From NCBI RefSeq assembly GCF_000264455.2, contig NC_017956.1, forward strand, positions 1-64,000: DNA of 64,000 nt. The letters are read 5' to 3'. Shown one piece after another: positions 2,973 to 64,000 of this stretch. A program made the position numbers and the translations under genes. The stretch is from Tistrella mobilis KA081020-065. GTDB taxonomy: Bacteria; Pseudomonadota; Alphaproteobacteria; Tistrellales; Tistrellaceae. The notes beneath the pieces were generated by a model, which searched no databases, was not told the DNA's origin, and saw nothing but the letters and a program-made list of their open reading frames with translations. Every line of letters starts with the position of its first letter. Within the stretch, counting starts at the first letter, position 1.

Positions 2973-6687
<3,715 letters not shown>

Positions 6688-60294: not shown

Positions 60295-61758
60295 TCACCA
60301 GACGCTGAAGTCGTGCGGAGCGACAACCGGCCGGCCGCCGGCGTGGCCCATCAGCCGGTCCCGCTGGTCCTGGCGGCGGCGGGTCGCCTCGACCCACTCG
60401 CCGCCGCCCAGAAGCAGGTACTGCAGCGCATCGGCAATGTGCGAGTGCTCGGACTTCGCCGGCACGTCCTCGTACCGCTCGCCGCCGCCGGGCAGGCGCT
60501 GGCGCTTGTAGGCATAGCCGGACAGCAGCGCCCGACGCAGGGTCCGGCACCTCGGGCTGATCAGGATCCCGGGCCGGCCGTCGATCATCCGCCCCAGCGG
60601 TGCACGGACGGCCTCCAGCCGCGGCAGCAGCCCGTTCGTCACCGTCCCGCGGAAGCGCACGCCGCTCGCTGCGGAAATCGCGTCCATCCAGCTCTCTTCG
60701 TCGGTGCTGGCCCGGCTGGTGCCGGCCGGATCGGCCCAGGCCTGCCCCACCTGGTGCCCCGGGTACCGATCCCGCAGCAGCCGCGCCAGCGCCTCGCCGA
60801 AGCGCACGGCGCCGATACCGCCCAGGTCTCCGACCAGCTCATCAAGGATCACCCACTGCCCCGTCGGCAGCTGCTGCGCGATCAGGACGGCAGGGGTGAG
60901 GCCCGCATCGGCGCCCAGCCGGAGCGGCACGCCGGGGGCCGGCTCGATCGGCGCCGGCGCCATGTGCTGGGCCTCCGAGAACTCGGGGAACACCGGCTTT
61001 CCGTCACGGCTCGCCCCCCACCGATTGTGGATCATCCGCCGGACGTACCACTCATCGTGCCCCGCGGCCGCGCGCTCGTAGTAGTCCGGCGGAAGATTTT
61101 CGACGTTCTCGGCGCCGGGATCGGTGCCACCGGGCTGGACGAAAAGCCGATATCCCGGCTTCGGATCGTCGACGAAATCGGCGCGCAGATAGTGATCCGT
61201 GTCCGGCGCGTTGAAATCGCAGATGATCCCGCGGAAGGTCGGGCCGCCGTGCCGTCTGGACGGATAGCGCGTCCGGCCCGGCAGGAAGGTCAGGACGTCC
61301 CGGCTCAGAAGGTCGACCTCATTAAGCCAGCCGCCCGTGATTTCGAAACCGCGGGTGAACGGCTCGACATCGTTGTCACCGATCGCGGCGAACATGACCT
61401 CGCTGTCGACGACGGACCCGTCCGGCAGCTGGTAGCGCAGGTGGTGCGCCGATGGCGCATTGTCCCCGCCGCTCTTGAAGACACCGAAATCATGAGGCAC
61501 CCACCCGAACCAGCTCGGCAGCACCGTCCGATTGATCCGGCGATACGTATCGCGGAGCACCACCCACCGGCTGTAGCGCACTCCATCGACAGGGCTACGC
61601 CCCTGTTCGCAGGCCAGGGCCAGCAGCTTCGCCACGCAGGCGCCCGTCTTGCCGGAGCCGATCGGCCCCATGATCGCTGACACGGGGCTTCGATCGGCCA
61701 CGAACGCGCCTGCGATCGGCCCCGGTGGAGACCATTGGAAGACCTGCGGTGTCCTCAC
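60295..61758 (-). CDS. Large terminase subunit
   Basis: The 487-residue protein packages DNA into the head. Walker A is GPIGSGKT (residues 31-38), then RYSRWVVLRDTYRRINRTVLP and GWLNEVDLLSRDVL follow, with a Walker B-like Glu in LNEVD. The C-terminal nuclease part has LRLGADAGLTPAVL, where the Asp is a metal ligand, and the late acidic motif in SHIADALQYLL. The GTG at 61758 is used as start, after AGGGA. It lies next to the putative small terminase gene. Confidence 0.9.
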   Translation of the reverse strand: MRTPQVFQWSPPGPIAGAFVADRSPVSAIMGPIGSGKTGACVAKLLALACEQGRSPVDGVRYSRWVVLRDTYRRINRTVLPSWFGWVPHDFGVFKSGGDNAPSAHHLRYQLPDGSVVDSEVMFAAIGDNDVEPFTRGFEITGGWLNEVDLLSRDVLTFLPGRTRYPSRRHGGPTFRGIICDFNAPDTDHYLRADFVDDPKPGYRLFVQPGGTDPGAENVENLPPDYYERAAAGHDEWYVRRMIHNRWGASRDGKPVFPEFSEAQHMAPAPIEPAPGVPLRLGADAGLTPAVLIAQQLPTGQWVILDELVGDLGGIGAVRFGEALARLLRDRYPGHQVGQAWADPAGTSRASTDEESWMDAISAASGVRFRGTVTNGLLPRLEAVRAPLGRMIDGRPGILISPRCRTLRRALLSGYAYKRQRLPGGGERYEDVPAKSEHSHIADALQYLLLGGGEWVEATRRRQDQRDRLMGHAGGRPVVAPHDFSVW

Positions 61759-61769
61759 ACTACTAATCC

Positions 61770-62459
61770 CTAATCAGTGGTATCGCTGGCATTTTCGCCA
61801 GCAATATCAATGGGTTGATCAGTCACGTTCAACTCGCTCGCGTTCAACTCGCGGCGAGCGTCGCCGCTAAGCTGTTGATATTGCTCACTTGTCAGATCCA
61901 CGACATGAACGGCCCCGTCGCCCGGCGCCGCGGCCGCGCTCGGCATCTGAAGGACCATCATTGGCAGGGCGTCGCCCGTGATTTCGACGGCCTGCGGCAG
62001 GCGCTGGTGCAGGTACGGCGCGACGTCGCGGGCTGCGGTCATCTGGATCTTGATCGCCTCGATCCGGTCGCAGTGCAGCCTCGCGGCCAGCTCTTCGACC
62101 GGCATCGAGTAGATGTCCGCCAGCACCAGCAGCGGTGACCGGTGCGTCGACAGCAACAGCTTGCGCCATTCCTCGGTCGACCTGTTCCGCGCCCCCTTCG
62201 GCCGGCCGGCCGAACGGCGCGGCGTGCCCCGGCCGGCGCCGAAATCGGCCAGGGCCTGGTCGAGTGGCCCCGCCCCCGTGGTGAGGACGTCGGACATATC
62301 GCCCTCCGCGTCCCCCTCTGGCTCAACTTCAGCGGGCAGGAGCGGCAGCTGCGCAGCCGGCGCCGGCCGCGCGCGCGCGGGATCCATCGCCCCCGCCGCC
62401 TCTGCCGCCTCCATCGCCGCTTTCAGCCCCTCTTTCCGCTCACTCACTGCATAAACCAC
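61770..62459 (-). CDS. Putative small terminase subunit
   Basis: The 229-residue protein is encoded directly upstream of the large terminase, the usual place of the DNA-recognising small subunit. It has a basic AT-hook-like stretch (RRSAGRPKGARNRSTEEW, about 81-98) and a helical middle (LADIYSMPVEELAARLHCDRIEAIKIQM) suitable for oligomerisation, then an acidic Ala/Pro-rich C-terminus. The start is GTG at 62459; a GTG four codons on is also possible. The repeat modules at 62,518-62,744 lie just upstream and may be its binding site. Similarity to a named family was not recognised. Confidence 0.6.
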   Translation of the reverse strand: MVYAVSERKEGLKAAMEAAEAAGAMDPARARPAPAAQLPLLPAEVEPEGDAEGDMSDVLTTGAGPLDQALADFGAGRGTPRRSAGRPKGARNRSTEEWRKLLLSTHRSPLLVLADIYSMPVEELAARLHCDRIEAIKIQMTAARDVAPYLHQRLPQAVEITGDALPMMVLQMPSAAAAPGDGAVHVVDLTSEQYQQLSGDARRELNASELNVTDQPIDIAGENASDTTD

Positions 62460-62517
62460 TGATATTTAATCCCTTTTTCCCGCCGGGCCCGCCCGGCCCC
62501 TGCCGCGTTCGGCTGTC

Positions 62518-62605
62518 GTTAGGTGTGCGTTAGGTCTGTCGTTAGGTCTATTATTCTTTATTTTCAATAAGTTAGAAGAATACCTAACAACCTAACGCAC
62601 CTAAC
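62518..62605. repeat. Heptamer module A: three GTTAGGT, AT-rich core, three ACCTAAC
   Basis: GTTAGGT occurs at 62518, 62529 and 62541, and its complement ACCTAAC at 62582, 62590 and 62599. Between the two triplets is an AT-rich core of about 34 bases (62548-62581) with TATTATTCTTTATTTT. The module is a dyad, and is repeated almost exactly by module B 138 bases away. It lies in the 455-base gene-free stretch between the small terminase and the P-loop gene. Confidence 0.85.
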
Positions 62606-62655
62606 GGCATGTCTTCACACGCATGCGCACACCCACATGCATTATGTGAGTGTGC

Positions 62656-62744
62656 GTTAGGTCCGTTAGGTGCGTTAGGTTCCTATTATTTTCCTTTGTT
62701 TTCAGATGCTTGGCACCTAACGCCCTGCCTAACATCTGCCTAAC
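62656..62744. repeat. Heptamer module B: three GTTAGGT, AT-rich core, three [AG]CCTAAC
   Basis: GTTAGGT occurs at 62656, 62665 and 62674, and the complement at 62715 (ACCTAAC), 62727 and 62738 (both GCCTAAC). The core (62681-62714) again has TATTATTTTCCTTTGTTTT. Between modules A and B is a 50-base spacer of mostly alternating purines and pyrimidines (62606-62655). Twelve heptamers in two matching dyads cannot be chance; they look like protein-binding sites for replication, packaging or control. Confidence 0.85.
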
Positions 62745-62801
62745 GTCTCGCCGTCCCCAGCCCCGGCGCTGCGTTCTTTCTGAACGCCCCGTCCTGGGTC
62801 T

Positions 62802-62839
62802 GGGCGGGGCCACCAAAAAAACCGGAGGGCGGGGCCACC
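62802..62839. repeat. 13-bp direct repeat flanking an A tract
   Basis: GGGCGGGGCCACC occurs at 62802-62814 and 62827-62839, separated by AAAAAAACCGGA. The second copy is part of the terminator hairpin. It may be a small local duplication. Confidence 0.5.
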
Positions 62840-62841
62840 GG
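62815..62841 (-). terminator. Rho-independent terminator of the P-loop gene transcript
   Basis: On the minus strand a GC hairpin with CCGG ends (62841-62822) is followed by seven T (62821-62815). It lies about 75 bases after the stop of the P-loop gene, so early transcripts from the right are separated from the terminase/structural operon. Confidence 0.55.
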
Positions 62842-62914
62842 GTCGAAGGGTCGGGGCGAGGTGAGGACGTCGAAAGCGGCCGGCCGCGCCCCTCTGCGGC
62901 CGGTGATCAGCTGG

Positions 62915-64000
62915 CTACGCCGGCGAGGGCGCGGCCGAAGTCGGTGTGAAGCGAGCCCTTTCGGGCTCGGGCAGGCAGAGGGCGAGGGGAATTTCCGACC
63001 CCCTGCACGTGGCCCCGATCCAGATCGTCTTTTTCGGCACCCGGGCGCCCTCCAGGCGCCGCAGGCTCTGGACCCAGACGCCATCCGCGGCGGCGCGCTG
63101 CTGCCAGTGCGTGCCCTGGAAAATCCTGGCAAGCCCTTGATGCTGATTGGCGACCCGCAGCCATGCCGACCGTGTCGGCGGCGGCTCGAAATGGACGGCG
63201 AGCCCTGCTTCCTGGAGCAGGCGGCGCGCCAGGCGCAGGCGCTCGTCCCCCTGATAGTCGGGGTGCGTCCCCGCGGCGATCCGGATCCAGTCGCCAATCG
63301 TCCGTCGCTGGCGGTCGTGCGGGCTGTCCAGGGTCGAGCTGAGCAGGTGGGTAAGGCACGACGCCTCGTCGCTCGCCTCGCCGTCCGGTGTCATCTCCGA
63401 CTTCGCCAACATCTCGACCCAGCCGTCGAGTGCCCCCGGCTCGGGAATCAGGTCGTGGAACAGCAGGTCCGCGGCCGCGAGCATCGTCCCATAGACGTCC
63501 TGGCCGCGGGCATCGTGCCCTGCCTGGCGCATGGCGGCGCGGTATGCCTCGACGGTCTCGGGCCAGCGCCACCAGCCGTCCATCAGACGACGCAGAAGCT
63601 GCGATCCCCGATCGCGCGCCCAGCGCTCGGTAATCTTGGGCTCGGGCCTATCGCCCAGCGGCAAAAGGTCAAGGATCGCAATCCGGCTGCGATCCTGCGG
63701 CAAAAGAGGTGGGATCAGAACAGACGAAAATTGAACAGAAGACCGCAAGATAAAATGCTCGGCGCCACCATCATTACCCGCACGCATGCTCAAGGCACCG
63801 GTCGCAGCATTCCGCGCAAGCTTGACAAGCTTATGCATCTGCCTGTTGTCTTCTTCGCTTTCCGCCTCGTCGATTGCGACGGGCAAGCTATCATACTTGA
63901 GCGTGCGCCGCAGGCTCGGTTCGGTTGCATCGGCGCTCTTCAACAGCGCATGCTCGTCGAACAGCATTTTGATGAAGTTCTGGAGCGTGCTCTTGCCGGT
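62915..64000 (-). CDS. Phage P-loop ATPase, probable primase/helicase (3' part; 5' end outside the window)
   Basis: The visible 361 codons run in frame from the window edge. The first residues read TGKST, the end of a Walker A loop, and SLPVAIDEAES follows about 40 residues later as a Walker B-like Asp/Glu motif. The rest is helical with WARDRGSQLLRRLMDGWWRWPETV and no further motif I recognise. The arrangement fits phage replication ATPases of the primase-helicase type, and the position upstream of the terminase block suits an early gene. The 5' part, perhaps with primase, is beyond 64,000. Confidence 0.65.
   Translation of the reverse strand, partial: TGKSTLQNFIKMLFDEHALLKSADATEPSLRRTLKYDSLPVAIDEAESEEDNRQMHKLVKLARNAATGALSMRAGNDGGAEHFILRSSVQFSSVLIPPLLPQDRSRIAILDLLPLGDRPEPKITERWARDRGSQLLRRLMDGWWRWPETVEAYRAAMRQAGHDARGQDVYGTMLAAADLLFHDLIPEPGALDGWVEMLAKSEMTPDGEASDEASCLTHLLSSTLDSPHDRQRRTIGDWIRIAAGTHPDYQGDERLRLARRLLQEAGLAVHFEPPPTRSAWLRVANQHQGLARIFQGTHWQQRAAADGVWVQSLRRLEGARVPKKTIWIGATCRGSEIPLALCLPEPERARFTPTSAAPSPA

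Follow-up and report, generated by a model that had tools for sequence, protein, structure and literature searches.

The window analysed here is a 64-kb stretch (positions 1 to 64,000) of the Tistrella mobilis KA081020-065 contig NC_017956.1, and towards its right-hand end it enters a full prophage with its own capsid, portal, tail and terminase genes. On the minus strand, a primase-like gene, the gene for a predicted initiator helicase (Rep), a repeat array, a probable terS, terL, a portal gene and capsid genes follow one another in that order. The array thus lies where an earlier reading of the same DNA (hereafter the sequence-only reading) had placed it, with a replication ATPase gene, Rep, on one side and the probable small terminase gene on the other. 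NCBIfam matches to the primase-like gene are weak, Rep has no match above cut-off in Pfam or NCBIfam, and a scan found no terminator between Rep and the array. The features are as follows.

60295 to 61758, minus strand: terminase large subunit (terL), phrog_2 match.
61770 to 62459, minus strand: probable terminase small subunit (terS), named from its position and its label in the sequence-only reading; sole match phrog_15261, of unknown function.
62452 to 62464, plus strand: extra IHF-type box at the start of terS, just beyond the array, differing from the IHF consensus at 1 position.
62518 to 62547, plus strand: outer (loose) iteron triplet A, GTTAGGT at 62518-62524, 62529-62535 and 62541-62547; pitch 11, 12.
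62548 to 62581, no strand: AT-rich core 1, AT 0.82.
62562 to 62574, minus strand: IHF-type box of core 1, TAACTTATTGAAA; opposite strand TTTCAATAAGTTA, 1 mismatch to WATCAANNNNTTR.
62582 to 62605, minus strand: inner (tight) iteron triplet B, at 62582-62588, 62590-62596 and 62599-62605; pitch 8, 9.
62606 to 62655, no strand: 50-bp spacer of alternating CA/CG/TG steps, Z-DNA-prone by sequence; alternation 0.80, rank 0.0 in the window.
62656 to 62680, plus strand: inner (tight) iteron triplet B', at 62656-62662, 62665-62671 and 62674-62680; pitch 9, 9.
62681 to 62714, no strand: AT-rich core 2, AT 0.65.
62700 to 62712, minus strand: IHF-type box of core 2, CAAGCATCTGAAA; 2 mismatches to the IHF consensus, de novo motif posterior >0.99.
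62715 to 62744, minus strand: outer (loose) iteron triplet A', GTTAGGT at 62715-62721, GTTAGGC at 62727-62733 and 62738-62744; pitch 12, 11.
62915 to 64000, gene continuing to 64756 of the contig, minus strand: Rep, predicted initiator helicase of 613 aa, 3' end facing the array.

The array comprises twelve iterons in 227 bp (62518 to 62744), ten of them exact copies of GTTAGGT and the last two, on the minus strand, GTTAGGC variants; the twelve GTTAGGT heptamers of the sequence-only reading therefore stand as an array, but not in the sequence of the last two copies. Exact GTTAGGT occurs ten times in the 64-kb window, always inside 62518-62721, against an expectation of 0.90 (sd 0.94), and none of 100 dinucleotide shuffles of the window contained ten or more. 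GTTAGG/CCTAAC hexamers between 60001 and 80000 of the contig are the array's twelve and nothing else, 80001-95000 holds no GTTAGG, and the other matches in the window, at 610 and 38554, lie far to the left. Start-to-start intervals by triplet are 11,12 / 8,9 / 9,9 / 12,11, and module 2 starts 138 bp from the start of module 1. Because these intervals run loose-tight and then tight-loose, the modules are mirror images in spacing: a loose triplet, an AT-rich core, a tight triplet and an alternating purine/pyrimidine spacer are followed by their reflection. The sequence-only reading had described two copies of one design, a description that keeps its intervals and its 138 bp but loses its common direction. 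Its cores of about 34 bp (two of exactly 34 bp, AT 0.82 and 0.65) and its mainly alternating 50-bp spacer were borne out, the spacer alternating at 80%, a value matched by no other 50-bp stretch when the window was sampled every 5 bases.

We gathered relatives of Rep from genomes, phage records and viral contigs, the viral set being the best 80 of 180 relatives, and searched around them for a cluster of at least eight hexamers with at least three in the inverted (minority) orientation. Such a cluster was present in 67 of the 80 viral contigs and in 2 of 80 shuffled ones. Counts on these 80 contigs, array parsing, core and spacer ranks and TerL distances retain near-duplicates and the window's own copy. 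After we had left out the copy in the window and loci whose Reps shared 80% identity or more, 58 of 69 contigs from the same best 80 carried a cluster (11 of 690 shuffles), and the stricter four-group layout was found in 56 of the 69 and, through the identical pipeline, in 2 of 690 shuffles. Of these 56 contigs, 52 also have the plain cluster and 6 others have the cluster alone, so that the four-group layout is absent from 13 and the plain cluster from 11 of the 69. Three of these six, the CGGCGA clusters of L213, L227 and L235, look like GC-rich coding noise. The top hexamer differs widely, with 35 different hexamers among the 56 contigs, or about 20 iteron words after overlapping registers were merged by eye. 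The array lies 3' of Rep in all 56 parsed non-redundant contigs, at a gap of 14 to 3499 bp and within 500 bp in 44 of them. The arrays not 3' of Rep are those of Acjo_20 and of L257, a contig left out of the non-redundant set as redundant. The L257 array (943-1153) stands about 5.8 kb before Rep, and that contig may be circularly permuted.

A second, mixed set gave a cluster at 16 of 31 loci (the window's own counted), at positions from directly beside Rep to 4.9 kb off; one of these, an A/T-rich word at L035, may be no true array. The 15 loci without one include every one of the six 86-96-kb phages and the two additional Bordetella phages of the set, and three of the 15 (L021, L038 and L044) still have 6-7 copies; since the flanks examined ranged from 1.5 to about 10 kb, arrays lying farther away could be missed in this set. 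One scan of genome contigs found no relative, and a pattern scan for the core box with the iteron word gave 14 contigs, none with a Rep match in the stretch examined. A GTTAGG triplet scan returned at least 120 rows, and among the 134 loci of the pattern and triplet scans together at least three have a Rep match (L068, L148 and L160), two of these with a GTTAGG-type array. Larger, closely similar GTTAGG arrays occur in the viral contigs L113 (6556-6824), L136 (7800-8070), L173 (3647-3917), L077 (893-1163) and L134 (1541-1811), none with a Rep match in the stretch examined; the ORFs checked near them encode a HEPN/TPR protein (L113) and a ParA-like ATPase (L136). GTTAG-type arrays also lie near a D5_N/DUF5906 protein (L083, 189-513) and a DUF5906 protein (L119, 1923-2195), which suggests that the same kind of array can be paired with P4-like initiators.

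The spacing of the array recurs with it. Our parser joined runs across gaps of up to 20 bp and accepted cores of 20-65 bp and spacers of 35-100 bp, with no selection on pitch, and four groups fitted 64 of 72 candidate arrays from the best 80 of 180 relatives (near-duplicates and the window copy included). In the non-redundant arrays of that set, outer intervals measured 11-12 bp in 61 of 81 and 65 of 89 cases, and inner intervals 8-9 bp in 74 of 76 and 78 of 84; of the 40 arrays that could be scored, 36 are mirrored and 4 direct. Parsed arrays from the same relatives mostly have cores of 34-39 bp, with spacers of 41-96 bp. Among the 64 parsed loci, again with near-duplicates and the window copy, mean core AT falls in the top 5% of its own contig at 60, the Z-run score of the spacer at 59 and its plain alternation at 51, while in named-phage or genome loci a central 50-bp proxy for the spacer reached the top 5% for alternation at just 10 of 17.

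The cores share a further element. After loci with a Rep 95% identical had been dropped, de novo motif discovery recovered YAASYCAYTGAWA in 111 of 121 cores, with a log-likelihood ratio of 378 compared with 44-48 in four shuffles. The motif mostly lay either 2-5 bp away from the outer triplet or at a distance of 7-10 bp to the inner triplet. Its reverse complement reads as the IHF consensus WATCAANNNNTTR given in the part of PMC10380432 available to us. Of 112 cores, 57 contain an IHF site with no more than one mismatch, compared with an average of 5.6 such cores (maximum 10) over 50 rounds of shuffling; only 14 of the 112 carry the exact consensus. The host genome encodes IhfA and IhfB, both over cut-off, and one protein that is nearest to HU yet under the HU cut-off, and we infer that host IHF binds the cores of the array.

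The structure model of Rep (pLDDT 91.1) resembles the initiator helicases of SaPI5 and SCCmec. Foldseek returned first an AsfvPrimPol structure and then more AsfvPrimPol chains, SaPI5, NrS-1 primase-helicases, PriRep1 and the MPXV E5 and D5 helicases. The two best VIA-align matches were the SaPI5 primase-helicase 7om0_D, with Z 16.0 over 329 aa at rmsd 6.5, and SCCmec Cch (5dgk_A), with Z 15.9 over 428 aa (model residues 42-597) at rmsd 6.1; MCM chains (Z 13-14.7) and D5 chains came close behind. As the MCM chains score nearly as well as SaPI5 and Cch, the AAA+ part common to them accounts for much of the fold match, and since VIA-align rows mostly span residues 37-462, support for the C-terminal fold comes mainly from Cch. 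By sequence profile, TIGR01613 (the primase_Cterm/D5 family) matched Rep far under its cut-off (E 0.055), and hhalign against P4 alpha gave a low probability with little aligned outside the ATPase region. The predicted fold agrees with a self-loading helicase of the kind that serves PICI and SaPI-type origins. As far as the accessible text of PMC7581432 goes, the C-terminal domain of SaPI Rep recognises iterons 3' of its own gene, and in vitro the repeats 3' of the Cch2 helicase gene are bound by the C-terminal domain of Cch2.

If the iterons were bound by the C-terminal region of Rep (RepC), the two might be expected to diversify together. Mantel and partial Mantel tests on 55 loci (Rep duplicates at 80% identity removed; p 0.0005 is the floor of 2000 permutations) gave a correlation of iteron similarity with RepC of r 0.253 (p 0.0005), compared with 0.107 (p 0.04) for the ATPase part of Rep, 0.105 (p 0.06) for TerL and 0.094 (p 0.07) for TerS. 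The RepC correlation persisted given TerL and TerS together (partial r 0.229, p 0.0005) and given the ATPase part (0.231, p 0.0005), whereas given RepC there was no residual link to TerL (0.008), TerS (0.023, p 0.36) or the ATPase part (-0.021). TerS was here the longest suitable ORF between the array and TerL, picked by rule, and the TerS half of the result is weaker for that reason. The 50-residue segments that covary best with the iterons, ranked without a permutation test, are Rep 81-150 and 541-610. In these comparisons of sequence the effects are modest in size and one-sided toward RepC.

Among the known systems examined, the closest layout is that of P4 crr (NC_001609, 4291-4590). Like the array, crr lies 3' of an initiator gene (alpha, a primase-helicase) and has two modules, each of forward iterons, a 35-bp core and inverted iterons, with a spacer of 60 bp where the array has 50. 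The crr modules, however, are annotated as direct 120-bp repeats of five type 1 iterons each, whereas those of the array are mirrored in pitch and built on a different iteron, GTTAGG. The crr spacer is also not alternating (0.49, rank 0.57), unlike that of the array (0.80), and although its cores match our box model at 4350 (score 10.1) and 4530 (11.8), these matches are not IHF sites within 2 mismatches, unlike the array boxes. P4 has a separate origin besides crr; the annotated origin (L186, 9364) also matches the box model (10.4), and 4350, 4530 and 9364 are three of six P4 sites scoring at least 10.

The origins of PICIs offer a second comparison. According to the portion of PMC6092414 that we could consult, these place sets of iterons on both sides of AT-rich DNA located 3' of rep, a plasmid replicated from one cloned rep-ori, and the organisation is shared by no other known bacterial replicon. 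The array resembles these PICI and SaPI origins in lying 3' of rep, in setting iterons around AT-rich DNA (here twice) and in pairing with a Rep whose model resembles SaPI5 Rep; it differs in having two mirrored dyads where the available descriptions give one, and in its carrier, a full prophage with capsid and tail genes and not a satellite dependent on a helper phage. The putative SCCmec Cch/Cch2 origin likewise combines a helicase fold close to that of Rep (5dgk, Z 15.9) with a site directly 3' of the helicase gene, though in the text accessible to us only three short iterons are reported for it, against twelve in the array. Mirrored double dyads, IHF-type core boxes and a Z-prone spacer are what is new relative to the P4 and PICI sites, and the double-dyad layout appears in no title or abstract found by a literature search that covered little of the subscription literature. 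Judged from its sequence, the array would work like a PICI or P4 cis replication site, and it falls outside formal membership on the satellite lifestyle, the P4 direct repeats and the P4 iteron.

The anatomy of the array, its recurrence near Rep relatives, the covariation of iterons with Rep and the IHF-type boxes, together with the predicted fold of Rep, argue that replication of the prophage starts at the array, with the prophage's own Rep helicase binding there, an assignment in which we have good confidence. The sequence-only reading had held origin and packaging site about equally likely; the recurrence of the layout with different iterons near Rep relatives and the covariation with RepC favour its origin half and undo the equality. 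From these observations we infer how binding, bending, hexamer loading, melting, direction and the spacer might fit together. Each module offers six iterons, three on either side of an AT-rich core; IHF would bend the core such that the two triplets face each other, one Rep hexamer would assemble on them, and the hexamer would melt the core and then load. As the modules mirror each other in spacing, we propose that two hexamers would be loaded in opposite polarity, one for each of two diverging forks, and the alternating spacer probably absorbs supercoiling or holds the two complexes apart.

The strongest competitor to an origin is a packaging (cos or pac) site at which TerS would bind the iteron triplets and IHF would bend the DNA, and we consider it unlikely. 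It draws on a likeness to lambda cosB, which lies near terS and combines R sites with an IHF site: the array too stands beside terS, itself a probable assignment, and has IHF-type sites in its cores. Position also speaks for it, because 60 of the 61 parsed contigs with TerL (best 80 of 180 relatives, near-duplicates and the window copy included) have the array 489-2453 bp ahead of TerL, including contigs in which as much as 3.5 kb separates the array from Rep; given this range and a Rep gap of 14-3499 bp, position alone fits terS at least as well as Rep. In addition, Vibrio phage VA-RY-3 has an array and a related TerL, and a Rep homologue was not detected, from which it follows that the layout may reach past this Rep family, or follow terS there. 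The VA-RY-3 array (L272, 2866-3108) is a two-orientation AGGATA cluster of 9 copies, 3 inverted, with core boxes, and the candidate helicase of that phage has a DUF3987 match and no relation to Rep by hhalign.

Unlike cosB, however, the array has iterons that follow RepC and show no residual link to TerL or to the presumed TerS (r 0.008 and 0.023), and it can stand apart from the terminase genes: in phi1422, a phage with a Rep relative, it is about 7.5 kb from TerL, and in Acjo_20 it is upstream of Rep and, provided that the record is closed, about 4 kb away from terS. The array was absent from the stretch fetched for 6 of 7 TerL relatives without a Rep match (two of the stretches being cut at the record start), and P4 crr has the same kind of layout in an element with no annotated terminase gene. 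A different candidate is also at hand. The exact IHF consensus occurs at just two places in the 64-kb window, 61805-61817 (+) and 61868-61880 (-); the two sites are convergent and lie at the terS-terL junction with a spacing of 63 bp. A convergent pair with at most one mismatch recurs near TerL in 10 of 54 relatives (spacing 61-63 bp in nine, 73 bp in one), against 3 of 54 elsewhere in the contigs. This pair is a better packaging-site candidate than the array, though coding constraint may contribute to it. Boxes downstream of the array at terS-terL at first resembled parts of the origin; judged by eye from the sequences, several of them probably coincide with TerS and TerL coding ends. The packaging claim of the sequence-only reading is thus weakened by the null terminase residuals and the distant terminases of two phages, while the adjacency on which it was built holds.

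Very unlikely, in our judgement, is an arrangement in which Rep binding to the array serves a cis requirement or copy-number control while replication starts elsewhere. P4 provides the precedent, since crr and a separate origin are both annotated there and type 1 repeats occur in each, but neither the window past about 41 kb nor the stretch 60001-95000 has a second GTTAGG cluster, and no separate origin with the same iteron is therefore visible there. The control role that the sequence-only reading had also entertained, with the iterons serving a phage repressor or activator as operators in the turn to late genes, would suit the border of replication and late genes at which the array lies in the window and in most parsed contigs, but we discarded it as scarcely credible, because 60001-95000 contains no further GTTAGG, the part to 80000 including a repressor-like gene at about 68.7 kb, no sigma-70-like promoter was found in 62400-62960, and the iterons covary with Rep in a comparison that covered Rep, TerL and TerS.

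An origin bound by Rep would supply a sequence rule for locating origins, together with the initiators that match them, in phage genomes, where gene annotation often stops at 'hypothetical', and would extend to full phages a layout that PMC6092414, in the portion available to us, describes as unique to PICIs. The roughly 20 iteron words with their matching Reps form a natural library with which initiator specificity, the geometry of loading a helicase pair and any role of Z-prone DNA at origins become directly testable. More tentatively, and at somewhat less than even confidence, we suggest that origins across a large group of phages follow a common plan, in which two mirrored docks would each load a helicase hexamer on 6 + 6 iterons in all, IHF would bend both cores and a Z-DNA-prone central hinge would take up supercoiling at initiation. 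The geometry of such a plan would stay constant while the iteron word and the recognition surface of Rep diversify jointly, giving rise to many origins incompatible with one another.
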